A stretch of 64,000 nt of DNA, taken from NCBI RefSeq assembly GCF_003610555.1, contig NZ_RAPQ01000014.1, positions 46,227 to 110,226 of the forward strand, in the 5' to 3' direction. The translations under genes were made by a program, and so were the position numbers. The stretch comes from Marinifilum flexuosum (GTDB taxonomy: Bacteria > Bacteroidota > Bacteroidia > Bacteroidales > Marinifilaceae). Below are positions 34,018 through 47,337 of this stretch, piece after piece. Numbering within the stretch: the stretch's first letter is position 1; every line of letters begins with the position of its first letter. The notes under the pieces are model-generated. The model ran no database searches and was not told the origin of the DNA. It saw only the letters and a list, made by a program, of their open reading frames with translations.

Positions 34018-34617
34018 TTATTCCTCGTATTCTGCTTTGGTGATATACATATTCAAAACCTTCTGTTGCATGGCCTCAATCGGATATCCTTCTGGCTCTA
34101 ATACAAAATTCATAGCAATACCATCCAACATAGAAGTCAAAAATTCTGTTTCCATTTCCGGATCGGCAGCTCCAGTTTTACTGAAATATTCATTCAGTAC
34201 ATCAAATTTCATACTTACAATTTCATCTAACTCTTGCTGATACAAAGGCAAAACTCCGGGTTGTAATCTTAAAGCATAAAACAGCTTAAAGAATTTTAAA
34301 TTCTTCTCGATAGAATCAACGTAATCATTAATAAAGAATAGTAATTCTACTTCCTGAAGATCTCCATCTTCATTTGGATCCAAACCGTCGTATAATACAT
34401 GAACAGCTTCGTCCACTATGGTATGCAGCAAATCTTCCTTGGTTTCAAAGTAAGAGAATAATTGATCTTCTGAAATCTCGGCAGCTTTTGCAATTTTTGC
34501 TCCTTTTGCGGCAAAATACCCCTCCTGCACGAAAATCTCTAAGGCGGCATTTAGGATCTCCCTCCTTTTCTCAACATCTTGTGGTAATATATTTTTAGAA
34601 GCCATAACAACAATCAT
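34018..34617 (-). CDS. TetR/AcrR family regulator
   Basis: 199 residues. The N-terminal helix-turn-helix reads RREILNAALEIFVQEGYFAAKGAKIAKAAEISEDQLFSYFETKEDLLHTIVDEA in family order (seen here as one continuous domain, residues 17-70). The ligand domain is all-helical and very acidic. Starts at 34617 or 34605 (MASKNIL). The neighbour is a repeat array, not a transporter, so the target is unknown. It converges with the M3 peptidase gene. Confidence 0.9.
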   Translation of the reverse strand: MIVVMASKNILPQDVEKRREILNAALEIFVQEGYFAAKGAKIAKAAEISEDQLFSYFETKEDLLHTIVDEAVHVLYDGLDPNEDGDLQEVELLFFINDYVDSIEKNLKFFKLFYALRLQPGVLPLYQQELDEIVSMKFDVLNEYFSKTGAADPEMETEFLTSMLDGIAMNFVLEPEGYPIEAMQQKVLNMYITKAEYEE

Positions 34618-34757
34618 TTAGATGAAAAACATCGGTTTTTACCTAAGTTACAACAGAAATTCGCTTACTTCCAAAAAATTATAATCGCAAAAAGACATTC
34701 AATCCTCTGCAATAGGTTTAAAACTCATGTATTTTATTGATTTTTTTGAGAAAATGT

Positions 34758-35120
34758 AACATACTTGAACTCGTACAAGTATTTTTTTCACAAAACGGAA
34801 CGTACGACATCCGTACGGCATTTCTGGTTGGCCGGAAGTGCCATACGAATCTCGTACAACACTTTCGGCTGACCAGATGGCATATACTGAACTCATACGA
34901 GCAATTTTGTTCAGAAGATATATCGTACTAAACTCTTACACTACATTTGGTGAACCAGAACTTCCGTACGAGAGTAGCACAAAGGATTTTTTTGACCGGA
35001 TAACTTGTACCAGACTCGTACACAACATTTGGTCGACCGGAAGCTCTTTACGAGTGTAGTATAAAAGATTTTTCAGTTTGGATGGCACTTACTAGGTTCG
35101 TTCACTTGATTTGGTTGCCG
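34758..35120. repeat. degenerate 41-bp tandem array with 82-bp higher-order period
   Basis: Nine units: starts 34758, 34799 (short, 37), 34836, 34877, 34918, 34959, 35000, 35041, 35082 (39). A rough consensus is a GTACGA/CTCGTAC core followed by ACATTTGGT and GACCGG. Units starting at 34918 and 35000 resemble each other most, and units at 34959 and 35041 form the other pair (both with AGATTTTT or GGATTTTTTT), so the larger period is 82. No two units are identical. The flanking parts of the 34618-35146 gap show one more possible unit before 34758 and nothing else. Confidence 0.85.
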
Positions 35121-35146
35121 AATAACTTTTGTAAAACTTATAAAGT

Positions 35147-35518
35147 TCAATTACATACCCAATTCATTGCAGCTTTAAGGCTTGCAAATGGTTTTAATTT
35201 CGCTTCCTTCAATTTTGCTTGAGCTATTATAGGGAATACAGTCTTTTTAGGTGTATCAACAACAATTGCCAATTTAATATTCTTATAAATTCCTTCATTG
35301 TTGATGTGTTTGACAACAATCTCCAGGTCACTTAGTTTAAAATTCAAATTGGCTGATTCAAAATCAGTAACAATACCAATTACATTTTTACAAATTAAAC
35401 TGTCTCTCATGTGTAAAAATGAATCCAACACTTCATGAATCTCAACAAAACCATAAAAACTTCTGATTATTACACAGGAGTTTTTAACTTCTACTTTGTC
35501 ATATACTACATCTGCCAT
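35147..35518 (-). CDS. SpoIIAA-like (STAS-fold) small protein
   Basis: 123 residues, cytoplasmic, alternating strands and helices, ending in PFASLKAAMNWV, which resembles the F.....EA..WL end of SpoIIAA-like/STAS proteins. No catalytic motif. It lies downstream of the NrfD gene but beyond a terminator, so it has its own promoter or is expressed by read-through. Confidence 0.55.
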   Translation of the reverse strand: MADVVYDKVEVKNSCVIIRSFYGFVEIHEVLDSFLHMRDSLICKNVIGIVTDFESANLNFKLSDLEIVVKHINNEGIYKNIKLAIVVDTPKKTVFPIIAQAKLKEAKLKPFASLKAAMNWVCN

Positions 35519-35530
35519 AAATCAACATAT

Positions 35531-35562
35531 AAAAAAGAGGATACAAATACTTGTACCCTCTG
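35531..35562 (-). terminator. terminator of the sulfur-respiration gene series
   Basis: On the minus strand: AGAGGGTACAA, loop GTAT, TTGTATCCTCT, then TTTTTT. 11-bp stem with one mismatch, about 55 bases after the NrfD stop at 35618. Confidence 0.85.
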
Positions 35563-35617
35563 ATCATTACGTGATTAAACCGCTTAGGTTTCCTAAACTA
35601 CAATTAAAACCTAACCT

Positions 35618-36559
35618 TTAATATAGATATTTACTTAACTGTCCTGCATCTACCATGATAAAACGGAATATCATTCCACCAAGCAAAATAAGGAAAGCAG
35701 GAAAAGCAACCGGGATTTTCTTCCCTCTCAATTCCATAATTTCCAAAATGGCTGGAACCAGTAATCCCAGTACAACTACTCCGCCCCAGAAAGGCAAGGT
35801 GTATGCTCCTCCAAGGAATAATTGAGCGGCTTCAATTTGAGCAGCATTACTAGCTAAAAATCCCATAAACAGGTGAATAATAAAGAAGATTTCTATTCCA
35901 ATCAATATCAAATCAATTTTACTGAACAGCGTTCTTTCCAAATGATCTTTCGACATACACATGATAACCGCAGCTCCTGTAGATAGCCCAGACACTAGGA
36001 ACAAAGGCCCTAAAATAGATGTATTCCACAATGGTCTTGCATTAAAAGCTGAAAGCAATATTCCAGTATAAATTCCAAGAATAACTGATGATACAATCAT
36101 TACCCAAGCCAATGGCTTACGGTATTTATTCACTTGCTCTTCTATAAATTCCAACCATTCTACTTTGAATTTCCAATTTGGTACTAGATCTCTCCAGTAG
36201 GCAACACACCAAACTATTGATAATGGTGTAACGAGCATTAATACCCATGCTCCCCATGACATTGGGGATTCTAATCGGATAGTAGTATACAATTGCCAGA
36301 AATACAGCTTGTTTTTTAAATCAAGGAATAAGGCAAATAAACCAATTACTAAAATTGCAGGCACCAAGAAAGTAGCTTTCCGAACTGCTGTTGGAAGTTC
36401 TTTTTCTCTACCCAAAATGGTGTAAAGTGCTGCAAAAAACAATATTCCTGCGGCCAAACCACCTAAAAACAAATACAATGGAATTTCCCATCCCCAAATT
36501 GCCAAAACAGGATCAATTTTTGGATTCATTCTTCCACTTATAATAATTTCTTCGTTCAT
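35618..36559 (-). CDS. NrfD/PsrC-type membrane subunit of molybdo-oxidoreductase
   Basis: 313 residues with eight to nine transmembrane helices. PLYLFLGGLAAGILF near residue 28 is the family's first-helix motif, and WGAWVLM and LSTGAAVIM occur later. NrfD/PsrC proteins bind menaquinol and pass electrons to the FeS subunit on the outer face of the membrane; they do not bind haem. The gene is the last of the series psrA-like, psrB-like, psrC-like. A strong hairpin at 36576-36628 lies in the 160-base gap that separates it from the FeS subunit gene. Confidence 0.92.
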   Translation of the reverse strand: MNEEIIISGRMNPKIDPVLAIWGWEIPLYLFLGGLAAGILFFAALYTILGREKELPTAVRKATFLVPAILVIGLFALFLDLKNKLYFWQLYTTIRLESPMSWGAWVLMLVTPLSIVWCVAYWRDLVPNWKFKVEWLEFIEEQVNKYRKPLAWVMIVSSVILGIYTGILLSAFNARPLWNTSILGPLFLVSGLSTGAAVIMCMSKDHLERTLFSKIDLILIGIEIFFIIHLFMGFLASNAAQIEAAQLFLGGAYTLPFWGGVVVLGLLVPAILEIMELRGKKIPVAFPAFLILLGGMIFRFIMVDAGQLSKYLY

Positions 36560-36575
36560 AATTTGATTGTTTTTA

Positions 36576-36628
36576 GATTCCGTTCATCAGAATTACCCCA
36601 GCGCAAAAGAATTCTGACAAACGGAATC
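36576..36628 (-). promoter_or_regulatory. long hairpin between FeS-subunit and NrfD genes
   Basis: GATTCCGTT/AACGGAATC (36576-36584, 36620-36628) encloses TCAGAATT/AATTCTGA (36587-36594, 36610-36617). No T-run follows on the minus strand, so it looks more like an mRNA processing or stability element that sets unequal expression of the two subunits than a full terminator. Confidence 0.55.
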
Positions 36629-36719
36629 CGTTATAAAACTTGAACTTGTTAAAACCTGCCAACCAACCACCATACAAAAACCAACTTGAATAGGCTGATC
36701 AACATTATCTTGAATATCA

Positions 36720-37253
36720 TTAAATCAGATAGTAAACATGTGGCTTTGTTCCAACCTCGGGAGCCAACACTTTCCAATCTCTGTTTTGTAACAATTGATA
36801 TACTTTGCTTTCCTTATCATCCAAGTCGCCAAAGTACATACACTCAGTTGGACAAACCGATACACATGAAGGAAGTTTACCTTCTTGTAGCCTATGGTGG
36901 CAGAAAGTACACTTATCAACAAATCCATCGGGATGAGAATAACGAGCATCGTAAGGACAAGACTGCACACAAGCACCACAACCAATACATTCATGGCGAG
37001 TAACTTTTACCAATCCTCCCTCTTCGTAATGACTTGCCCCTGTAGGACAACATCTTACACATGGTGAGTTTTCACAATGATTACAACGCTCCGATCTTAA
37101 TTCGATACTTACATTTGGAAATGTACCCTTTGCATGTTCAATCACCCAATCGCGACAATACCCAATTGGCACACGGTTTTCGTTTTGGCAAGCTACAACA
37201 CAGTCGCTACAGCCAACACATTTCTTTGTATCAATTACCATTGCATATCTCAT
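36720..37253 (-). CDS. 4Fe-4S ferredoxin-type electron-transfer subunit (PsrB/PhsB-like)
   Basis: 177 residues with four cysteine clusters: CVGCSDCVVAC near residue 14, CNHCENSPCVRCC near residue 57, CIGCGACVQSCP near residue 89 and CTFCHHRL...CVSVCP near residue 116. That gives four [4Fe-4S] sites as in PsrB, PhsB, DmsB and NrfC. It should relay electrons between the NrfD-type subunit and the molybdopterin subunit. Its ATG overlaps the stop of the molybdopterin gene by 4 bases (37250-37253). No Tat signal, so it is exported with its partner. Confidence 0.94.
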   Translation of the reverse strand: MRYAMVIDTKKCVGCSDCVVACQNENRVPIGYCRDWVIEHAKGTFPNVSIELRSERCNHCENSPCVRCCPTGASHYEEGGLVKVTRHECIGCGACVQSCPYDARYSHPDGFVDKCTFCHHRLQEGKLPSCVSVCPTECMYFGDLDDKESKVYQLLQNRDWKVLAPEVGTKPHVYYLI

Positions 37254-39484
37254 GATACTACCTCGCTTTCTGGTTTATCGGTTACAAAACTTACAAAGTT
37301 ACCACGCATTCCGGTTCCTCCCATTACTGGATCAACCATTACATTCGTAATCAATTGAGAATCGCTTATTCCTTTACCAAATGATCTCTTTAGTTTCTTA
37401 TTGGCTCTACCAAATCCATGAACCATATAGACATTGTCTTTACCTATTCGTTCCGTTACTCGTACTTTAATAGGAAAGTCTGAAACTACACCATCCTGAT
37501 TCTTCAACCAAACTTCCTGACCATTCTCCAAATTGTTATCGGCAGCAACAAAAGGATTTACCCAAAGACTATTCTCACTCATCAACTCATTCAAATTTGG
37601 GTTATTGGCAGTTCTGCCAAAAGTATGCATTGGTGCTCTACCGTAATTCAAACGATAGTATCCAGTTGGTGGCTCAGGGTGTGGTGTGTAATTTGGAATC
37701 GGATCAAATCCTTCCATTTCCAAATCCAATGAATACAGTTCAATCATTCCTGTAGATGTACCAAACTCATGATAATCGTCCGCTTCAATAAACATTGGAG
37801 TTTTACGTTCCATTTTAAGAACTCCCTTTTCTTTCATTTCTGCTAATGAAGAACCCATTTGCTTCAATTGCCAATCAATTACTTCACCATAGCTTTCATA
37901 ATTGAAATGCTTCGATAGTTTTAATTTCTTAGCTAATTTTCTAACAATCCAATCTGATGGTTTTGATAGATATTTTGGCTTAACAGCAGGAACTCTTACC
38001 GCCACATTTGGGAACCTGTTCGGAGACACTCGCATATCATCGTAACGTTCCAAATAGGTGCATTCAGGCAGAATAATATCTGCATAACCTGTAATTTCCA
38101 TAGGCATTGTATCTACCACTACCAATAAATCAAGATTCTGAATTGCCTCTAAGGTTCTCTTGGTATCAGGAATTGTTGAGATTAAATTCGTACCTACAAC
38201 AAACCAACCTTTAATCTTATAATCAGATTCATTATTAGGATGAGACATATCCACAAATACATTTGCTATCGATGATCCTGCCAATGCATATGTACCATCC
38301 AAATGATCTTTCCAGGTCCAGTTTACAGGTGGATATCCAGGGTGTGGATAAGAAGCTACCTTTGCTTTTTCCGGGAAATAGAAACCACCCTTTCTTCCCC
38401 AGGAACCTAACAATGCATTAAGCATGGCCATTGCTCTCAATCTTTGTGTATCATCGCCGTACCATGTTACATGTCGTCCAGGATGAATTAAAGTTGCTGG
38501 AGCATGGAATGCCATTTCTCGTGCTGTCTGTCGAATTACATCAGCACTAATGCTTGTAATTTTTTCTGCCCACTCAGGCGTTTTGTCAGCAACATGAGCC
38601 TGCAAATCTTCCAGGCCGTAAGCATATTGCTCTATATATTTCTTATCGTATAATTCTTCGCTAACAATTACGTTCATCCATGCCAGAAGCAAAGCGATAT
38701 CAGTAGCTGGTTTAATCGGCAACCAATACTTCGATTTACTTGCTGCTGTTGATAATCTTGGATCAACAGTAATAATTGTAGCTCCACGATCAATGGCTTT
38801 CGACATTTCCTGCACATGAGAGTTGTGCATGTTCTCTCCAATATGATTTCCGATTAATACCAGGCATTTGGTATTCTCAAGATCGACTGGTTCAGGAGAG
38901 TTGATATTTGATCCGAATGTAGTATTGAACCCAACTTCACGTGGACCACGACATTGTGCATAAGAAGGAGCTGTAATGTTTTTAGAACCAAAAGCTTTAA
39001 AAAGTTTTCCAAAATGTGCACCACCTGATCCATGTTTGAACAAGGCAAGACTCTCTGGCCCACTTTCTTCCTTAATTTCATTCATTTTTTCTGCGATAAA
39101 GCGGAAAGCCTTATCCCAGCTAACTTCCTTAAAAGTTTGTTTTCCATTTTCTTCAACTCTCATTAAAGGAGTCTTCAAACGATCAGGATCGTTGTACATT
39201 CCTAAACCGCCAGTACCACGAGGACAGAACCTTCCGTTTGAATGCGGATCATCCTCATTTCCTTCTATTTTCCAGATTTCACCTTTTTCGTCGGTGTAAA
39301 CCCAACCGGCACACTTCCAGAAACAAACTTCGCAGTATGTTGGGAAGCGCTTTATTTTCGAAGCATCCATTGGTTCAGCAGCATTTACTTGCCCTATCAT
39401 GGCATTTAAAAGCGGATTGGCCAATACCAATCCTCCTGCGCCAATTGCGGATAACTTAATAAATTCTCTTCTCGATTTGTTCAT
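37250..39484 (-). CDS. molybdopterin oxidoreductase catalytic subunit (PsrA/PhsA-like), Tat-exported
   Basis: 744 residues. The Tat signal has the twin-arginine motif SRREFIK at residues 4-10. The [4Fe-4S] motif CEVCFWKC...FCPRG begins near residue 51, and a candidate Mo-ligand Cys occurs in SYAQCRGPREVGFN near residue 183. The later motifs NHIGEN, DPRLSTAASKSKYWLPIKPATD and FGRTANNPNL fit the polysulfide/thiosulfate reductase branch of the DMSO reductase superfamily. Exact substrate (polysulfide, thiosulfate or tetrathionate; arsenate not excluded) cannot be fixed by eye. The rhodanese genes upstream in the same series favour sulfane-sulfur compounds. Confidence 0.9.
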   Translation of the reverse strand: MNKSRREFIKLSAIGAGGLVLANPLLNAMIGQVNAAEPMDASKIKRFPTYCEVCFWKCAGWVYTDEKGEIWKIEGNEDDPHSNGRFCPRGTGGLGMYNDPDRLKTPLMRVEENGKQTFKEVSWDKAFRFIAEKMNEIKEESGPESLALFKHGSGGAHFGKLFKAFGSKNITAPSYAQCRGPREVGFNTTFGSNINSPEPVDLENTKCLVLIGNHIGENMHNSHVQEMSKAIDRGATIITVDPRLSTAASKSKYWLPIKPATDIALLLAWMNVIVSEELYDKKYIEQYAYGLEDLQAHVADKTPEWAEKITSISADVIRQTAREMAFHAPATLIHPGRHVTWYGDDTQRLRAMAMLNALLGSWGRKGGFYFPEKAKVASYPHPGYPPVNWTWKDHLDGTYALAGSSIANVFVDMSHPNNESDYKIKGWFVVGTNLISTIPDTKRTLEAIQNLDLLVVVDTMPMEITGYADIILPECTYLERYDDMRVSPNRFPNVAVRVPAVKPKYLSKPSDWIVRKLAKKLKLSKHFNYESYGEVIDWQLKQMGSSLAEMKEKGVLKMERKTPMFIEADDYHEFGTSTGMIELYSLDLEMEGFDPIPNYTPHPEPPTGYYRLNYGRAPMHTFGRTANNPNLNELMSENSLWVNPFVAADNNLENGQEVWLKNQDGVVSDFPIKVRVTERIGKDNVYMVHGFGRANKKLKRSFGKGISDSQLITNVMVDPVMGGTGMRGNFVSFVTDKPESEVVS

Positions 39485-39672
39485 CAGATTGTTGTTTTAT
39501 AATTGAACTGATGCTGTTAGAACAAACACCTGTTTATTCAATTTCGTTGAGTCTTTCAACTTTCAACAGGACTTAAAGCCTCTACAATTTCTATTAATTT
39601 GTGTAATAGCAGAATAGCTTAAACTCATACCCCCCGAGTACGAAGGGCATGAATTGAATTTATGAAAAGAAA

Positions 39673-40518
39673 CTACTTTTGAACAGTTTCAGTAGCGGTC
39701 CACTCAAATAGAGCACCGTCATATACTTTTACTTTAGGATAAGCTAAAGCCGATTTTAATGCCATGTAAACCACACCGGCACGAACGCTAGATTCACAGT
39801 ATAAGATAACTTCCTTATCCTTGGTAATACCAGCAGCATTGAATAAAGCCTGTAATTCTTCTTTAGACTTCAACTTGCTTTTGCTAGTCATAACCTTTTT
39901 GAATTCAAGGTTAATGGCATTTGGTATGTGTCCTTTAGGCAATTTTGATTCCTTAATTCCCTTGTACTCATCAGCTGAACGAACATCTACAACAACAGCA
40001 GCTGAAGAATTTGATGCTTTTTTCACCTGTACGATATCAGCAATAGCAGCCTTATTAAGAGCTACATTAAAAGTTGTTGCTTTTCTTTTAACAGGATTTT
40101 TGGTTACCGGCTTACGAGCCATTCTCCAGGCTTTCATATGTCCGTCAAGAATTTTCACATCTTTTGCGCCTAAATATTTCAAAATCCAGTATACACGTCC
40201 TGAATATTTCCCAGATCCATTATCATACAAAACAATTGTATTGGTATTACTAATACCTTTCGCTCCTAGAATCTTAGCAATTTCAGCAGTTGATTTTAAT
40301 GTACTTTTGGGTTCAGCTTTGTAAAGATCCTTGTGATTTACATGAATTGCGCCATCAATATGAACCTTAGCGTAATCAGTAGCTTTACGTGTACTCACAA
40401 GTACTACATTATCATTCCCTTTAATTTTCAAGAATTCCTTAACTGAAATTACATCTTGAGCAAATGTCATTTGAATGCCTAAAAAGCAAACAAAAACAAG
40501 TAATAATATCTTTTTCAT
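39673..40518 (-). CDS. exported two-domain rhodanese (SseA-like)
   Basis: 281 residues with a signal peptide (residues 1-20, ending MTFAQ). Two rhodanese domains: the first (about 25-140) has DNGSGKYSGR at the catalytic-loop position and no Cys, so it is inactive; the second (about 155-275) has the active loop YCESSVRAG with its Cys. This is the thiosulfate/mercaptopyruvate sulfurtransferase layout. It should transfer sulfane sulfur in the periplasm. The 188-base gap to the molybdopterin gene may hold a separate promoter. Confidence 0.92.
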   Translation of the reverse strand: MKKILLLVFVCFLGIQMTFAQDVISVKEFLKIKGNDNVVLVSTRKATDYAKVHIDGAIHVNHKDLYKAEPKSTLKSTAEIAKILGAKGISNTNTIVLYDNGSGKYSGRVYWILKYLGAKDVKILDGHMKAWRMARKPVTKNPVKRKATTFNVALNKAAIADIVQVKKASNSSAAVVVDVRSADEYKGIKESKLPKGHIPNAINLEFKKVMTSKSKLKSKEELQALFNAAGITKDKEVILYCESSVRAGVVYMALKSALAYPKVKVYDGALFEWTATETVQK

Positions 40519-40582
40519 AATCTTTAGTTTTTAACAGTTCAATGAATTATTGGGAGCCAAATTGGCTCCCTTGTAATAATTT

Positions 40583-41623
40583 TTAAAATTTAACAGTTAC
40601 CTGCAACATGAAAATATCGTTATCAATTTCATCGGCTCTTTCAGCACGATACACATAGTTTGCCTGAATTTTTGTCCAATCGTTTAAGAAGTAGTTTAAA
40701 CCATAAGTAGTACAGAATTCTGTATTGTTACCCATATCTTTATCTGAATCAAAAAATTCACATTTAAATACTGGCTGCAGGTTGTTTTTAAACTTGTACA
40801 TTGCCATGATAAATCCACCATCGCGCTTAACACTACCTTGATGCAGTGTTAGCTCTTCGCCACAACCACCACCGGTTGTATAAGATCCAACATCTTTACC
40901 ATACAAGTATTCAGCTTGCAACATAAAAGCTCCTGTTTTGTACTGAAGGTCAGCACCCCATCTGGTTCTTTCATCATCTGGCATGCCAGCTGTTGCTGAA
41001 GCTGATTCTCCATACTTATAACTTGCACCAATTTTGAAATTCTTGTGAGGATTTACCACCACACGTGCAGCATAATCTTTCTTTTTATTGTCATCCTTAT
41101 CAAACAATCCGTTACCATTGGTTACGGCAACACTGTATTGGAATAATGTAGTGTCTGATCCACCAAGAACCATAAAACCACGGTCGCGATCAGGAGTTGC
41201 CAATTGCTCAACTACTCTTGAACGGTTAATTGTGTGCAATTTGTGACATGGAGTGTTTAATTCCAATGAAATAGGCGACTTGAAAGACCCCATAGAGATA
41301 CGAGCGAAATCGTAGCGTGAATAAGTTACAAATGCATCCAACAGGTAAGCATCTCCATCATGTCTTTGGTTATCAGGACTTGCTTCCAGCACTACATAGT
41401 AACTGATATCATAAGGGATTTTCCCCATTACACCAATTCTAGCTCTATTAAAATCAAAAGTATTGGTATCATCATTTGCAGCATTTTCGTTATACTGATA
41501 TTTAGGTTGAATAAAACCAAAAACATTAACTCCCTCATCTGATGGCTCATCACATCCTTGCGCATTTACCAGCATAGGAATACAAAAAGCAAGTGCAAAT
41601 AGTAATGCATATAATTTTTTCAT
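40583..41623 (-). CDS. outer-membrane porin (OprO/OprP-type fold)
   Basis: 346 residues. Signal peptide (residues 1-21, ending VNAQG), then an alternating beta-strand pattern typical of 16-stranded porins: VNVFGFIQPKYQYN, FNRARIGVMGKIPYDISYYVVLEASPD, ending in a strand with terminal Phe (IFMLQVTVKF). Porins of this type pass anions. Placed inside the rhodanese/molybdo-oxidoreductase series, it may admit thiosulfate or another sulfur oxyanion; that is inference from context. Confidence 0.85.
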   Translation of the reverse strand: MKKLYALLFALAFCIPMLVNAQGCDEPSDEGVNVFGFIQPKYQYNENAANDDTNTFDFNRARIGVMGKIPYDISYYVVLEASPDNQRHDGDAYLLDAFVTYSRYDFARISMGSFKSPISLELNTPCHKLHTINRSRVVEQLATPDRDRGFMVLGGSDTTLFQYSVAVTNGNGLFDKDDNKKKDYAARVVVNPHKNFKIGASYKYGESASATAGMPDDERTRWGADLQYKTGAFMLQAEYLYGKDVGSYTTGGGCGEELTLHQGSVKRDGGFIMAMYKFKNNLQPVFKCEFFDSDKDMGNNTEFCTTYGLNYFLNDWTKIQANYVYRAERADEIDNDIFMLQVTVKF

Positions 41624-41713
41624 GATTATCTTTTTTTTAGGTTATGGGAATTATATCGGTGAAATACAATTCCCGATATTCGGTTAGTTGTATGAATATA
41701 TCTTGTTCCTGTA

Positions 41714-43591
41714 CTAGTTTACTAATGGTAAATCAGTTGTTGGAGCAACAAACTTATGGCTCTCTAATGATGGATAAATCATTTTGTTAGAACCAAACTT
41801 TAATGATACAGCATCATAACCAAGTACATTTAAATATGCCGTAATCATAGAAGAAGTTTGACCTGTCCAACAATAGGTACAAATTTGAGCACTTGCATCA
41901 AGATTAGCCAATTCACCACCTTCTATGCTTAATGGTTGAACTCTATATGCACCAGCAATATGCCCGTAATGGTCAACATCGGTTTGCGCCCAATAGTTGT
42001 TTATGAAATAGTTCGATGGTGATGTCAAAACATCTGTAGCATTAACACCTTTAAATCCATTCGTTGTCATAGCAGTTACTCTTTCCTGAAGAATATTAGC
42101 TCCATCAGTATATGTTGACATTACGCTTGGGTAATCGAAAGATTGATTGCTTTCTACAGCAGAGGTAACCCAATTTGAATGACCTTCGGCAACTGCACCG
42201 TTGGTAGCACCTGAATTACTTTCCCAAGATCCTGATAAAGTTGAATTCCATCCACTCATTCCCCATTTTAATACCTTAGCGTCTGTGTATCCGCTTAAGC
42301 GAAGTGCAACTACTGCATGAGAAGCTGTTTGTCCTGTATAACAAGCTACCAATATTGGCTTTGTTGTACTTGCTGCATCTGATACAATATTTCCTAAAGT
42401 AGAATTGATTGCACCTTCGATATGGCCGGCATTGTATGCATCTGCAGATCGAATATCTATAATATCATAAGTTGAAAGGAAAGTTGCTAAGTCAGCCTGT
42501 GCCGGAGCTCCTGTAATCCATCCGGTTAAAACATCCGGTAAATCAAGATCATTAGCTACCAGGTAATCGGTTAAGGTTCCAAAAACATTTGTTGGTGTAG
42601 ATGTAACAAGCGGTAAATCAACGGTAGGAGTAACAAACTTATGGCTTTCTAATGTTGGGTAAATCATATTATTTGAACCAAATTTCAACGAAACAGCATT
42701 ATACCCAACAACATTTAAGTATGCTGTAATCATTGATGAAGTTTGACCTGTCCAGCAATAAGTACAAATTGTAGCATCAGGATCAAGATTAGCTATCTCA
42801 TTGTTTTCAAGACTTAAAGGTTGAATTCTGTATGCACCGGCAATATGTCCATAATGATCAACATCATCTTGCGACCAATAATTATTAATAAAATAATTAG
42901 ATGGAGTAGTTAATACATCAGAAGCATTAACACCTTTAAAACCTCCCAAAATCATTGCATTCACTCTCTCTTCAAGAATAGCAGCTCCACTTGTAGCTGT
43001 TGTATTGAATCCAGGATAGTTGAAAGTTTGGTTGTTTGCAATTGCAGGAGTAGTTAACCAATTTGCATGACCTTCACCAACAGCACCATTTTCGGCACCT
43101 GATTTTCCTTGCCAAGGTCCTGATAATGTTGAGTTCCAACCACTCATCCCCCATTTTAAAACTTTTGCATCTGTGTAACCACTCAAACGAAGAGCAACTA
43201 CTGCATGAGATGCTGTTTGTCCTGTATAACAGGCAACCAAAATAGGCTTAGTTGTATTACCTGCAGTATTTAAAATATTCTCCAATGATGAATTAACTGC
43301 ACCTTCAATATGACCAGCAGCATAAGCATCTGCAGATCGAATATCAATAATATCATAAGTATCAAGGAAAGTAGCCAAATCAGCCTGCGCTGGAGCTGCT
43401 GTAATCCACCCAGTTAAAACATCTGGAAGATCAAGATCGTTAGCAACCATGTAATCCTTTAAGGTTTCAAAGTTTTCCGATAGATCAGGACCTGGTTCAG
43501 GGGTATAAACATCATTTTCTTCCTTACAAGAGGACAGAAATAATGTCGGCACCAATGTAAAAATAAAGAAATACTTCATTAATTTTTTCAT
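41714..43591 (-). CDS. lipoprotein with four rhodanese-like domains (tandem duplication)
   Basis: 625 residues. Lipobox LSSC (Cys22). Residues 41-336 and 337-625 are two close copies of one module. Each copy holds a first rhodanese domain with loop CYTGQTAS (Cys121, Cys417) and a second with CWTGQTSS (Cys279, Cys574); the second loop is preceded by another Cys (CTYC). All four loops keep their Cys. Copies stay nearly identical over long stretches (for example LVANDLDLPDVLTGWIT in the second copy against MVANDLDLPDVLTGWIT), which shows recent duplication or gene conversion. The protein probably sits on the outer membrane and binds or hands on sulfane sulfur. Confidence 0.9.
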   Translation of the reverse strand: MKKLMKYFFIFTLVPTLFLSSCKEENDVYTPEPGPDLSENFETLKDYMVANDLDLPDVLTGWITAAPAQADLATFLDTYDIIDIRSADAYAAGHIEGAVNSSLENILNTAGNTTKPILVACYTGQTASHAVVALRLSGYTDAKVLKWGMSGWNSTLSGPWQGKSGAENGAVGEGHANWLTTPAIANNQTFNYPGFNTTATSGAAILEERVNAMILGGFKGVNASDVLTTPSNYFINNYWSQDDVDHYGHIAGAYRIQPLSLENNEIANLDPDATICTYCWTGQTSSMITAYLNVVGYNAVSLKFGSNNMIYPTLESHKFVTPTVDLPLVTSTPTNVFGTLTDYLVANDLDLPDVLTGWITGAPAQADLATFLSTYDIIDIRSADAYNAGHIEGAINSTLGNIVSDAASTTKPILVACYTGQTASHAVVALRLSGYTDAKVLKWGMSGWNSTLSGSWESNSGATNGAVAEGHSNWVTSAVESNQSFDYPSVMSTYTDGANILQERVTAMTTNGFKGVNATDVLTSPSNYFINNYWAQTDVDHYGHIAGAYRVQPLSIEGGELANLDASAQICTYCWTGQTSSMITAYLNVLGYDAVSLKFGSNKMIYPSLESHKFVAPTTDLPLVN

Positions 43592-43650
43592 GACTCAATA
43601 GTTTAGATTTGTATTAGTTTAGGTTATAATTCAGGTTAGATAGTTCAAGT

Positions 43651-44184
43651 TTAGCATCCGCCGGAATCTTCTTCTTCGGAGGCAGCATATTCCATCCCAC
43701 CTTCTTCAATATTATCTTCGCTGATTTCGGGATAAGCTTCGTGCCAGCCATGCCAACCTCCACTTATTACCTTTACATTTTTGTAGCCCAATTGCTGTAA
43801 GCGCAATGCTGCCAATGGACTGCGGTTACTTTTCTTACAATAAAGAATAAGTAGTTCCTCTTTTTCCGGCACATAAAGTCCTTCCTCATCCCATACCTTT
43901 TCGCTTCCAATTCTGAATTCAAGAACACCACGCGGAATAGAAACCGAACCAGGTATATAACCTTTATCGTGTTCCTTAGGGAGTCGCACATCCAATAGTA
44001 CATATGGATCTTCACCATTCATTAAGCTGTGAAAATCACTCACAGATATCTCAGTAACATTTTTACGGATATCAGCTACCATTTCATCAACACTTTCGTA
44101 AGACTTAACAGGACCATTTGAATCGCTGTTACATCCAACTAAAGCAATAAGGCAGATAAAGAAAAAAGCCTTGATTGTTTTCAT
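43651..44184 (-). CDS. rhodanese-domain lipoprotein
   Basis: 177 residues from the ATG at 44184 (MKTIKAFFF); the frame reaches 44217 but the extra N-terminus would spoil the signal. Lipobox ALVGC. One rhodanese domain: PYVLLDVRLPKEHDKGYIPGSVSIP and active loop LYCKKSNRS with its Cys. The C-terminus is acidic and ends EEEDSGGC, with a final Cys that could carry sulfur or a metal. First gene of the series that runs to the NrfD gene, divergent from the Fnr-type regulator. Confidence 0.9.
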   Translation of the reverse strand: MKTIKAFFFICLIALVGCNSDSNGPVKSYESVDEMVADIRKNVTEISVSDFHSLMNGEDPYVLLDVRLPKEHDKGYIPGSVSIPRGVLEFRIGSEKVWDEEGLYVPEKEELLILYCKKSNRSPLAALRLQQLGYKNVKVISGGWHGWHEAYPEISEDNIEEGGMEYAASEEEDSGGC

Positions 44185-44218
44185 AGATTCAATATTTAAG
44201 TTCAAAAACTGTAACATT

Positions 44219-44232
44219 TTGATAAGAATTAT
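44219..44232 (-). promoter_or_regulatory. candidate Fnr-type operator
   Basis: TTGAT-AAGA-ATTAT agrees with TTGAT-N4-ATCAA at eight of ten defined bases (one half-site perfect), 35-48 bases upstream of the rhodanese lipoprotein start at 44184. The regulator gene next to it has the ExxSR recognition helix that reads TTGAT. Confidence 0.45.
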
Positions 44233-44490
44233 TAATTTTGTGCACCTTTAAAACGATTGCAATTATTTTGTTAAAAAAATCTTTACCAGATTAAATACTG
44301 TTACAATTGGCTGATTAAAGATTTATTTCTCTATTACAATATTACAGGATTCCTACATCCAATTCGAGAAAATCATACCGCAATCCCTCAACCCGGAATT
44401 GGTAATTTGAAACAAATAATTTGACGTCGGAAAGATGTTTTCTTGATCTATTACATGTTTTTTTCTGACTTATAACATGTTTTTATACTC

Positions 44491-44498
44491 TAAATTTG
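44491..44498 (+). promoter_or_regulatory. -7 box of the Fnr-type regulator gene
   Basis: TAAATTTG matches TAnnTTTG, 46 bases before the ATG at 44545. Confidence 0.6.
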
Positions 44499-44544
44499 TA
44501 TATATTTACAGGACTAGATACAAAAACCAAAACCCCCTAGGCCT

Positions 44545-45240
44545 ATGGCAATGCCAGTAAAAACAACCTGTTGCAAAGAATGCGTCAGCAAATCTGCTTG
44601 CTTCAAAGAACTATCTGAAGAAGAACTAGTTCTGATCGACCAAGGACGCTTCGAAGTCACTTTTAAAAAAGGAGAAGTAGTATGCAAGCAAGGAATGCTT
44701 GCCTCACATTTGATCTATATTAAGAAGGGATTTGTAAAATTATACATCGAAGGAGGCCATAACAAGAACATCATTTTAACTATCGAAAAGGATGGCTACA
44801 TGATCGGATTACAGTCTCTTTTCGGTAATAGTGTTTTTCATTACACGACGGTGGCTTATGAAGATACTTCCGTATGTTTATTCGAGATGAGTACCATTAG
44901 TAAAATCATTGAACAGAATTCTGGATTCGCTTCAAAATTAATTGCTCGCTTAAACGAAAATACCATTCGCGGTTACGGACGATTGTTCTGTTTGACCCAG
45001 AAACAAGCAAGTGGACGATTGGCAGATATTCTTCTTTGCTTGTCTGATCGCCTCTACAAAAGCAATAATTTTGAAATGGCCTTATCACGAAAAGACTTGG
45101 CAGAAATTACTGTGATGTCTGTAGAAAGCCTTTCTCGTGTAATCAAAGAATTTAAAGAAGATAAAATCATATCCTTAGAAGGAAGAAATCTTGAAATTTT
45201 AGATCGAGAAAGATTAGAACGAATTTGTGAAACAGGATAA
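44545..45240 (+). CDS. Fnr-type oxygen-sensing transcription regulator
   Basis: 231 residues. N-terminal cysteines C10-x2-C13-x5-C19 have the exact spacing of E. coli FNR (C20-x2-C23-x5-C29), and Cys111 in TSVCLFEM lines up with FNR Cys122, so all four ligands of an oxygen-labile [4Fe-4S] cluster are present. A cNMP-type beta-roll follows. The C-terminal helix-turn-helix has VESLSRVIKEF (Glu194, Ser197, Arg198), the FNR pattern that reads TTGAT half-sites. Most Bacteroidota Crp/Fnr proteins lack these cysteines. Divergent from the rhodanese/molybdo-oxidoreductase series and probably its anaerobic activator. The start could also be the ATG at 44551. Confidence 0.9.
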   Translation: MAMPVKTTCCKECVSKSACFKELSEEELVLIDQGRFEVTFKKGEVVCKQGMLASHLIYIKKGFVKLYIEGGHNKNIILTIEKDGYMIGLQSLFGNSVFHYTTVAYEDTSVCLFEMSTISKIIEQNSGFASKLIARLNENTIRGYGRLFCLTQKQASGRLADILLCLSDRLYKSNNFEMALSRKDLAEITVMSVESLSRVIKEFKEDKIISLEGRNLEILDRERLERICETG

Positions 45241-45256
45241 TCTTCTTCAAGATACA

Positions 45257-45284
45257 AAAAGGGTTCTGTTAAGAACCCTTTTCT
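45257..45284. terminator. bidirectional terminator between convergent genes
   Basis: AAGGGTTCT, loop GTTA, AGAACCCTT with A-run before and TTC after, in the gap between the Fnr-type gene (ends 45240) and the AraC-TPR gene (ends 45286). Confidence 0.9.
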
Positions 45285-45285
45285 T

Positions 45286-47337
45286 CTATATCAACTTTTG
45301 ATCTTTTAGTGTTTTCTTCAACCTTTCGTGTCGTTTGTTAAATTTATCCTTTAAAATATCAATAAACTGCCTATACTCTTTCGTTTCCAGAATATCATCA
45401 AACAACGGATCATCCTCCAAAAACATGATCACCCACAAAGAATACTGATCTTCTTCAGCAAATAGATTCAGTTCTTTAAAGGCTCTTTCTTGATCTCCCT
45501 CTTGCACTGCACAAACTGCCAAACTTAAATGCTTGTATATTGAACTGTGTGTGTTCGCAAATTCCCGATAGGAATCAAATAGCAATTTGGCTTCTTGATA
45601 TTTGCCCACTTTTGCATATACATGAGCAATTTTAGAATCCTCACCTGGGTAGATATCTAATTTCCGATCCTTTCTGGCTTTTACAAAAATGCTGTAGTAC
45701 TTATAAGCTTCTTCATAGTCTCGTTGAGCGTAACAAACTTTTCCTATTTCCTGCAAAATATCCAATCGTGTCTGATCTTTATTCCAGGCAGCAATAAGCA
45801 GTTGTTTCGTTTCATTAAAATCTTTGTTTTTTGCCAACAATATATATGCCTTTAAATATTCAGAAAATAAATTAGTCGGATTGTGATTCAGAGATTTGTT
45901 GATGTACATCTCTGACTCCTCTATAAATCCAGATTGTATTAACGCATTACTAACATGTAAGTAAATGAAACTGGCTGTTACAGAATCATTGGCCGCAATG
46001 TTTAATTGTATCCCTTTCAATGCATATTCCAGATATTTCTCAGAATTAGGCATATAATTCGCATAGAAATTCGACAGGTAATTTAAAACGTAAGCAGAAT
46101 TGGGATTATACTCTAAAGCTCTTTCAAAATAAGGCACTGCTGCTTCATTTTCTCCCTTTGCCAAATACGATAAAGCCTTTGATATCAAACTCTGATAATC
46201 CTTGGAATCATAAAGCATGGCCTTATCAGCATTGACAACAACCCTATCAACGTATACTTTCTCAGCTTTAAAAATGTCTAAATAGTAATAACCAATTGAC
46301 TTAAATGCATATGCACGAGCAAATTTATCATCCAATTCAATTGCTTTATCAAGGTGAGAAATTGCCTCAAGCAATACTTCTCTCTTTTCCTGTCGCATTA
46401 ATTCCAGGGCTTTTAGATACTCGTCATATGCCTCGAGATTATCCGTAGGTGTTTTGGCTATTAATGATTCCTCTTCAGGAGTAATAATAGCTTCCACGCT
46501 TGTGGCAATCTTTTTGGCCACTTCCCTTTGCAGATTAAATATATCTTTTGCCTTTCGATCGTACTGTTCTGCCCACAAATGCTTATCGTTACTGGCTTTA
46601 ATCAGCTGAATATTCAACAAGATCTGATCTCCAATTTTCTGACCACTTCCCTCTACAAAATAACTTACACCCAATTCCTCCGCAATTTCTGGAATCGTCA
46701 GGTTTGAATTTCTATACTTCTCAACCGATGTTCTACTAATTACCCTAACATCCTTAATTTTCTGTAAATGATTCAAAACAGATTCCATCAATCCATTTAC
46801 AATATAAACATTGGCTGAATCTTTACTATCGTTCTTAAATGGAAGCACTGCAATTGACTTATCCTCCTCTTTGTGATTAAACTGAAATGGATTTATAATA
46901 AAATAAGTTGACACAATACTCAGTATAACAGCTAATGCAATAATTACACGACCTTTGCGCTTTTTTGGTTTCTCTACTTCAATTTCATTCTCTGGTGTTT
47001 CATGTTTGCCTTCTTCTCCTGGAGGATATCCATACAATTCCCTATAGCACTTTATAAAGTATGATGTGCTGCTAAAACCAACCTGATAGGCAACTTCAGA
47101 TACATTAGAATCTCCGCCTAATAAAATATCCTTCGCATTTTCAAGTCTGATTTGCCTGATAAACTGACTAACGGAAAGATTGCATTGCTTTTTTACTTTC
47201 CGTAGGAGATTAGAACGACTCATTCCTATTGCATCAGCCAATTCGGAAACACCAAAACTCTCATTGGATAAGTTTTCTTCAACAATTTCCTTTAGCTTCA
47301 ATAAAAAATCATTCTCTTCAAATTGGTTCGTTGCCAT
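45286..47337 (-). CDS. AraC-type regulator fused to membrane anchor, FlgO-like domain and TPR repeats
   Basis: 683 residues. Residues 1-110 are an AraC helix-turn-helix pair (SFGVSELADAIGMSRSNLLRKV; NVSEVAYQVGFSSTSYFIKCYRELYG). A transmembrane helix follows (about 131-150). Residues 155-270 are the KSIAVLPFKNDSKD ... VRVISRTSVEKYR domain found in adenylyl-cyclase-like and FlgO-type proteins. Residues 300-660 are TPR repeats. Having the DNA-binding domain at the N-terminus of a membrane protein suggests a one-component sensor reading the periplasm by its TPR part. Target unknown; it faces away from the plus-strand ankyrin gene. Confidence 0.88.
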   Translation of the reverse strand: MATNQFEENDFLLKLKEIVEENLSNESFGVSELADAIGMSRSNLLRKVKKQCNLSVSQFIRQIRLENAKDILLGGDSNVSEVAYQVGFSSTSYFIKCYRELYGYPPGEEGKHETPENEIEVEKPKKRKGRVIIALAVILSIVSTYFIINPFQFNHKEEDKSIAVLPFKNDSKDSANVYIVNGLMESVLNHLQKIKDVRVISRTSVEKYRNSNLTIPEIAEELGVSYFVEGSGQKIGDQILLNIQLIKASNDKHLWAEQYDRKAKDIFNLQREVAKKIATSVEAIITPEEESLIAKTPTDNLEAYDEYLKALELMRQEKREVLLEAISHLDKAIELDDKFARAYAFKSIGYYYLDIFKAEKVYVDRVVVNADKAMLYDSKDYQSLISKALSYLAKGENEAAVPYFERALEYNPNSAYVLNYLSNFYANYMPNSEKYLEYALKGIQLNIAANDSVTASFIYLHVSNALIQSGFIEESEMYINKSLNHNPTNLFSEYLKAYILLAKNKDFNETKQLLIAAWNKDQTRLDILQEIGKVCYAQRDYEEAYKYYSIFVKARKDRKLDIYPGEDSKIAHVYAKVGKYQEAKLLFDSYREFANTHSSIYKHLSLAVCAVQEGDQERAFKELNLFAEEDQYSLWVIMFLEDDPLFDDILETKEYRQFIDILKDKFNKRHERLKKTLKDQKLI

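Follow-up and report, generated by a model that had tools for sequence, protein, structure and literature searches.

Introduction

Little is known about how sulfur-respiring bacteria bring elemental sulfur and polysulfide, substrates that are bulky or dissolve poorly, across their outer membrane. In Wolinella succinogenes, a PsrABC reductase is accompanied by Sud, a rhodanese that is one soluble single-domain protein, and we know of no rhodanese or porin part in the Psr complex of Thermus thermophilus. Here we describe a cluster in a 64,000-nucleotide stretch of the Marinifilum flexuosum genome (contig NZ_RAPQ01000014.1, positions 46,227 to 110,226; hereafter the window) that likewise joins exported rhodaneses to a Psr-type reductase, with genes for three rhodanese proteins (rho1, rhoA, and rhoB), a porin, and PsrABC. 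We find that rhoA-porin-rhoB is a portable cassette, and we consider it fairly probable that, beside a PsrABC-type reductase, this cassette acts as a relay bringing sulfane sulfur (polysulfide or elemental-sulfur chains) from the cell surface to the periplasmic enzyme. Compared to Sud, the cluster spreads seven rhodanese domains over three proteins, of which two are lipoproteins, and adds the porin; neither small rhodanese is of the soluble single-domain type: rho1 has a single domain but carries a lipobox, while rhoB lacks a lipobox but has two domains.

The closest known system is ExtH/ExtI of Geobacter sulfurreducens (extHIJKL...), in which a rhodanese lipoprotein likewise stands beside an outer-membrane porin (PMC5877670, PMC6148476; statements cited by PMC number refer to the portions of those papers available to us). 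The Ext phenotypes studied in Geobacter are selenite/tellurite and metal reduction. ExtH is a single protein, whereas the cassette has separate genes for surface-type and periplasmic rhodaneses; ExtI is described with one cysteine (PMC5877670), compared to three in the cassette porins, and the window carries PsrABC instead of Ext cytochromes. Two proposals come near the cassette in idea: a porin and a rhodanese lie near Ttr genes in Deferribacter autotrophicus, for which polysulfide entry is proposed in one sentence (PMC6896113), and OprD-like porins, of another family than the cassette porin, were proposed for sulfur uptake in Sulfurovum (PMC10045233), where the conversion of S8 to polysulfide is called unknown and a porin route only possible. 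In the available portions of these papers, neither proposal includes a conserved cassette with psrABC or signal or cysteine evidence. The YTD cluster (yedE, tusA, and dsrE) of sulfur disproportionators shares gene types with the neighbors of four cassettes described below (L131, L133, L145, and L147). None of these three genes was found among the window open reading frames (ORFs) of at least 90 amino acids at 34018-47337, the range covered by all our Pfam and NCBIfam scans of the window, and the window reductase differs in being periplasmic.

Our literature search, for which subscription journals were largely out of reach, found no description of the cassette. The initial annotation, made from the window letters, named no described system of this make-up; partial precedents exist in ExtH/ExtI, Sulfurovum, and Deferribacter. 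A rhodanese with Psr (Wolinella) and a rhodanese lipoprotein with a porin (Geobacter) were already known; the separation of surface-type from periplasmic rhodaneses, the triple-cysteine porin, the several sulfur-module partners, and the repeated domain doubling are apparently new.

Results

The gene cluster recurs and rhodanese genes adjoin psr in relatives

All seven ORFs are in place on the minus strand, and their Pfam families match the identities first given to them (Table 1). The rho1 ORF spans 43651-44217, but its lipobox is better fitted by a start at 44184; from rho1 to psrC, the intergenic gaps are, in order, 59, 90, 64, 188, -4, and 160 bases. The window belongs to contig C7 of a 5.17-Mb genome, whose PsrA shares 99% identity with the Marinifilum sp. 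D737 protein. The complete order rho1-rhoA-porin-rhoB-psrABC, together with a divergent Crp/Fnr gene, was found in seven Marinifilum/Ancylomarina loci (L039-L042 and L044-L046, with L039 from nearly the same strain as the window) and in two farther loci, L048 and L139, the latter from the rhoA search below. Since the whole order recurs in these loci, the cluster is not a chance arrangement.

To follow the reductase, we took the best 80 of 439 confirmed PsrA relatives in species genomes; these were chosen by likeness to the window PsrA and are thus not a random sample of Psr enzymes. psrA was whole by our threshold in 79 of the 80, leaving uncounted one locus (L052) where it is split in two pieces. 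The adjacency of rhodanese genes and reductase on which the initial annotation had staked its reading holds in these relatives: a rhodanese gene lies within 6 kb in all 54 of the 79 loci with 3 kb or more of sequence past nrfD, and in 64/79 when every whole-psrA locus is counted. The arrangement psrABC, two YedE-like half transporters, and a one-domain rhodanese occurs in 52 of 73 loci with both psrA and nrfD, and the porin cassette in 13/80 psr loci.

The catalytic subunit is of the Psr/Phs type

Against the PDB, PsrA matches Thermus thermophilus Psr (2vpw/2vpz) with 643 bits over residues 4-733, compared to 166 bits for the next relative and 128 for ArrA. A PsrA cysteine aligns with Thermus Cys173, which we take to be the molybdenum ligand. 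PsrA has a twin-arginine translocation (Tat) motif, SRREFIK, and PsrB has four cysteine clusters (both read by eye); with the NrfD/PsrC subunit, all of A, B, and C are present as in Thermus. Because of the Tat signal, PsrA is placed in the periplasm. The best NCBIfam model is PhsA (NF012032), followed by formate dehydrogenase alpha (264.5 bits) and ArrA (155 bits). Because the match to Thermus Psr is strong while the PhsA score (471.6 bits) falls below the curated cut-off of 694, we call the enzyme a Psr/Phs reductase and leave its substrate unnamed. Judged by these comparisons, the catalytic subunit belongs to the Psr/Phs reductases, with polysulfide or thiosulfate reduction as its predicted activity. 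An identity as arsenate, formate, or nitrate reductase was rejected, with scores far below Psr, and a grouping with arsenate reductases, the outcome that the initial annotation had set against itself, is not what we find. Its description of a reductase respiring the collected sulfur is upheld for the enzyme type, while substrate and direction stay conjectural.

A second psrA, 64% identical to the window copy, lies elsewhere in the same genome (contig C2:500064-502298) and has relatives in L049, L050, and L057. In L057, psrABC of this second type is followed by two YedE/TsuA-like half transporters and a one-domain rhodanese; in family scans, one half matched TsuA/YedE models and the other half none.

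Six of seven rhodanese domains keep the loop cysteine

A rhodanese scan of the organism's own genome finds seven separate stretches in the cluster (1 + 4 + 2), although rhoA domains 2 and 4 are weak (27.8 and 22.1 bits), with domain 4 reaching the cut-off of 22.2 only with its neighbors. The rhoA structure model (predicted local distance difference test [pLDDT] score, 88.6) has rhodanese folds as its best matches; the good matches are to single domains only, and residues outside about 58-332 are scarcely covered in the VIA list. By phmmer, rhoA found nothing in the PDB at 1e-6. The best PDB match of rho1 is 6mxv (97 bits), and Sud itself (1qxn) was also matched (E 7e-4). As first annotated, six of the seven domains have an active-loop cysteine, read by eye as CKKSNR in rho1, CYTGQT, CWTGQT, CYTGQT, and CWTGQT in rhoA, and CESSVR in the C-terminal domain of rhoB; the exception is the rhoB N-terminal domain, with YDNGSGK. 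The rhoB C-terminal cysteine is invariant in 33/33 aligned proteins (alignment A4, the window plus 32 of 39 rhoB; two of those left out are cut before this loop).

The two halves of rhoA share 79.6% protein identity over 289 residues and 78.0% DNA identity over 860 bases, and Ancylomarina has a two-domain rhoA at the equivalent place; 33 two-domain rhoA out of 45 entered alignment A2. All nine whole four-domain relatives keep the four loop cysteines. In a tree of rhoA halves, the Marinifilum halves form one clade and those of L119, L120, and L121 pair within each locus, while the L123 halves are not resolved. Because halves group within lineages, either rhoA doubled repeatedly or gene conversion kept the halves alike. 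By the alignments and tree, the four-domain form consists of a tandemly duplicated two-domain unit, and such duplications are seen in several lineages. The repeated doubling may mean that the cell benefits from additional sulfurtransferase sites at its surface. We rejected the seven-domain system as what is conserved, in favor of the two-domain rhoA: the elaborated system first described does have seven domains, but part of the elaboration is duplication, with rhoA halves about 80% identical and the Ancylomarina form two-domain.

Export signals separate rhoA from the other rhodaneses

In Capnocytophaga, K-(D/E)2 behind the lipid-bearing cysteine is sufficient for surface export of a lipoprotein (PMC5080379). 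The lipobox cysteine of the window rhoA is followed by KEEND, which resembles this lipoprotein export signal (LES), while the rho1 lipobox (LVG-C) is without a surface-type signal. Under a rule looser than K-(D/E)2 (Lys in position +2 or +3, with two or more acidic residues among positions +2 to +7), the signal is present in 32/41 rhoA, compared to 0/17 rho1 and 2/100 non-rhodanese lipoprotein-like ORFs of the same loci; the lipobox call is missing in 4/45 rhoA rows (a masked L048 and a cut L122 among them) and in 4/21 rho1 rows. No rhoB is a lipoprotein (0/39), as the four flagged by an earlier, looser lipobox pattern were matches inside the mature protein that disappeared under a stricter rule. 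From these signals, rhoA probably sits at the cell surface, rho1 probably faces inward to the periplasm, and rhoB is probably a soluble periplasmic protein. The idea of outer-membrane rhodanese lipoproteins collecting sulfur is supported for rhoA by its surface-like signal; since rho1 is without that signal, the lipoproteins are probably not all outside.

Three cysteines of the porin are invariant

The porin has an OprO/OprP fold with 16 strands in a fold search with its structure model, and its sequence found nothing credible in the PDB. Cys24, Cys126 in the long loop L3, and Cys254 in loop L6 (loops assigned from the DSSP string and usual porin topology) are invariant in 38/38 aligned cassette porins and are kept in the 120 best database relatives as well. 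The alignment (A1) comprises the window sequence plus 37 of 48 porin ORFs. The other 11, near-duplicates or cut or split ORFs, were set aside, and they keep each of the three cysteines wherever its position is covered. L119, L120, L043, L151, and two L149 pieces cover one or two of the cysteine positions fewer; the L149 porin, split in two frames, was counted once, and L177 has no usable ORF in the porin control. The outer-membrane pore first proposed is thus borne out by its fold, its dedication to Psr is not (see below), and the three invariant cysteines are an addition to that proposal. The porins of L179 and L183 score 93 and 100 bits to the cassette profile, with three cysteines of their own and no QGC motif, and perhaps form a sister family.

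The cassette porins are distantly related to ExtI: all 38 match NF040900 and no other NCBIfam model (best E 1.9e-20), and the window porin scores 62.6 bits against a cut-off of 150. The window rhoB reaches 73.9 bits with the ExtH model (cut-off 200) and scores higher with the SseA model, while ExtH is not among the NCBIfam matches of the 33 rhoA. Multihaem Ext cytochromes were not found among the window ORFs scanned; Ext-like cytochromes lie near L059, L063, L086, L118, L120, L130, and L138.

The cassette occurs with several sulfur modules

A search with rhoA alone covered 295 Bacteroidales genomes, 138 of which gave some match, and 40 of the strongest places were taken with flanks of at most 20 kb each, often ended by contig ends. 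Of these places, 35 hold rhoA of the cassette kind and 34 of the 35 a porin; the other five (L154-L158) hold rhoA-like proteins without such a porin. The remaining cassette-kind place (L143) is at a contig end with no porin visible and stands outside the 34 cassettes, its genome (G250) being inside the 35 of the co-occurrence test below. The full rhoA-porin-rhoB triplet is present in 25/34 cassettes.

Among the neighbor gene families, verified on examples, YedE occurs at 7/34 cassette loci, in some cases accompanied by TusA, DsrE, FlpD, and Hdr-like genes; at one of these loci, L129, it belongs to a distinct unit nearby. An octahaem cytochrome of the Otr family is found together with cytochrome b at 6/34, and an ExtM/ExtP-like cytochrome at 3/34, two of which also have psrABC. 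Any recognized module occurs at 17/34. The initial claim that the rhodanese-porin part is dedicated to Psr falls, and Psr as the sole partner was rejected: of the 34 cassettes, 3 share the examined locus with psrABC and 14 with modules for other sulfur or electron functions, while no recognized module was seen at 17. Because of the associations with YedE, TusA, DsrE, Hdr, and Otr, a general sulfur entry module fits better than a single-enzyme part, and general sulfur import is the probable role of the cassette. psrA is enriched in cassette genomes (24/35 compared to 61/259 without the cassette; odds ratio, 7.1; Fisher P = 2.3e-7, in a test that ignores kinship and draft genomes). This comparison spans 294 genomes, the organism's own excluded, and the 35 leave out weaker rhoA hits and a contig-edge hit in G187. 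At L120 of genome G216, the one Ext-type locus without psrABC, psrA is some 15 kb off on the same contig, outside the stretch examined.

Some loci have features of their own. At L145, L131, L133, and L147, genes for YedE, rhodaneses, the porin, DsrE, FlpD, and HdrA-like proteins are packed closely together, and L145 and L147 also have TusA; in these Bacteroidales, the cassette possibly feeds a cytoplasmic sulfur route. A fused cytochrome b/multihaem gene like ExtP + ExtM, accompanied by a Rieske gene, lies divergently between cassette and psrABC in L130 (12017-15122) and also in L063, L086, and L138.

Across the wider phylum, a strong rhoA-like match was obtained in 29 of 395 genomes (own included). 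Of 20 places taken, 2 have a porin (one also psrABC). In the other 18, the rhodanese gene adjoins a gene for a multihaem cytochrome, and one of them also has a psrABC-like set on the locus. In L208-L225 (e.g., L210:9438-11824), a rhoA-like two-domain lipoprotein is paired with a multihaem cytochrome, possibly an electron-conduit version; three examples counted have 10 CxxCH motifs, and the L210 pair adjoins larger multihaem genes.

Regulatory features of the locus

A divergent Crp/Fnr gene lies within 6.5 kb upstream in 20 of the 34 rhoA-found cassettes. The window regulator starts with several cysteines (CCKECVSKSAC), and N-terminal cysteines also occur in several regulators by other cassettes, perhaps for redox or sulfur sensing. 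Between this gene and rho1, the candidate operator CATGTAATAGATCAA is identical in 8/8 aligned Marinifilum/Ancylomarina regions, a count that includes the window and near-same-strain L039. The terminator annotated at 35531-35562 is seen as a terminator-like hairpin, but the consensus scan for promoters and terminators did not rise above shuffles (6 terminator matches found, compared to 6.6 expected).

Table 1. Features of the rhodanese-porin-psr locus in the window
Feature	Position	Strand	Description
rho1	43651..44184	minus	one-domain rhodanese lipoprotein; Pfam Rhodanese
rhoA	41714..43591	minus	four-domain rhodanese lipoprotein; Pfam Rhodanese
porin	40583..41623	minus	Pfam Porin_O_P/Porin_4
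rhoB	39673..40518	minus	two-domain exported rhodanese, no lipobox; Pfam Rhodanese
psrA	37250..39484	minus	Tat-exported molybdopterin subunit, Psr/Phs type; Pfam Molybdopterin
psrB	36720..37253	minus	four-cluster iron-sulfur subunit; Pfam ferredoxin domains
psrC	35618..36559	minus	NrfD/PsrC membrane subunit; Pfam NrfD
Crp/Fnr-type regulator gene	44545..45240	plus	divergent from cluster; Pfam/NCBIfam scans
15-base element CATGTAATAGATCAA	44443..44457	minus	candidate operator between Crp/Fnr gene and rho1
terminator-like hairpin	35536..35561	minus	after psrC; consensus scan

Discussion

In the relay that we favor, rhoA at the surface would take sulfur up as a persulfide and hand it to the OprP-like pore, rhoB and rho1 would receive it at the inner side and pass it on to PsrA, and PsrA would reduce it to sulfide with quinol electrons arriving via PsrC. 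A bolder version, which we regard as rather doubtful, makes the porin a cysteine ladder in which sulfur passes as a persulfide from a surface rhodanese to periplasmic ones via Cys254 on the outer loop, Cys126 at the L3 constriction, and Cys24 at the periplasmic N terminus.

Several observations weigh against the relay. psrABC is on the locus of only 3/34 rhoA-found cassettes, 17/34 have no recognized sulfur module (7 of these on loci shorter than 12 kb), and no PsrA match was found in 11 of the 35 cassette genomes. The rows are related, so counts and P values are not independent, and the lipoprotein control is crude in that it includes unproven ORFs. The export signal consensus is that of Capnocytophaga and may not hold in Marinifilum; surface location, transport direction, and substrate are all inferred. 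The porin cysteines may only form disulfides, and the best NCBIfam model for PsrA is PhsA, below its cut-off.

This last point leads to an alternative that we judge unlikely but the most serious of those considered, in which the enzyme is a thiosulfate (or tetrathionate) reductase, the anion diffuses via the porin, and periplasmic rhodaneses split or recycle its sulfane sulfur with no trans-membrane relay. PhsA is the top model, OprO and OprP are anion channels, and Marinifilaceae genomes have been tabulated with thiosulfate reductase (PMC9765461). However, the score misses the curated cut-off, and a surface-type rhodanese and porin cysteines would be superfluous for thiosulfate, yet both are strongly conserved.

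We think it improbable that sulfur flows outward in the window cluster, with sulfide or persulfide being oxidized or detoxified and sulfur exported for sulfide tolerance, disproportionation, or storage. Thermus-type PsrABC is a quinol-driven reductase, and no match to Sqr, Sox, or DsrAB models was found among the window ORFs scanned. The neighbors of some cassettes give this direction its appeal, as the YedE/TusA/DsrE/Hdr gene types figure in disproportionation models (PMC12998232) and Hdr in sulfur-oxidation models (PMC11129491). Strains of Ancylomarina and Labilibaculum from the Black Sea were able to grow with as much as 7 mM sulfide, but sulfide oxidation was not seen in these cultures, according to the available portion of the same study (PMC11129491). 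An outward direction could apply in some hosts. Finally, it is very improbable that the cluster is a selenite/tellurite system like Geobacter ExtHI, with rhodaneses that protect from or trap Se/Te: the ExtI model is the only NCBIfam match of each of the 38 porins, 33/33 rhoB match ExtH, and ExtM/ExtP-like cytochromes adjoin some cassettes, but the window scores are under the curated cut-offs, the window cluster has no multihaem cytochromes, ExtI has one cysteine (PMC5877670), and the recognized cassette neighbors are mostly sulfur genes.

For the sulfur relay itself, a conserved and movable cassette offers concrete candidate genes for the sulfur entry step, and these are present in cultured Marinifilum and Ancylomarina. 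The cassette would also mark hidden sulfur metabolism in Bacteroidota. Our findings also suggest that Geobacter ExtHI is worth a second look as a sulfur system; Desulfocapsa sulfexigens is among the sulfur bacteria for which ExtI homologues have been named (PMC5877670). If the cysteine ladder is true, sulfur atoms would cross the outer membrane bound to protein. To our knowledge, such a trans-envelope persulfide relay would have no earlier example. The cysteine-ladder channel would then be an entry module shared by several sulfur respirations in Bacteroidota.

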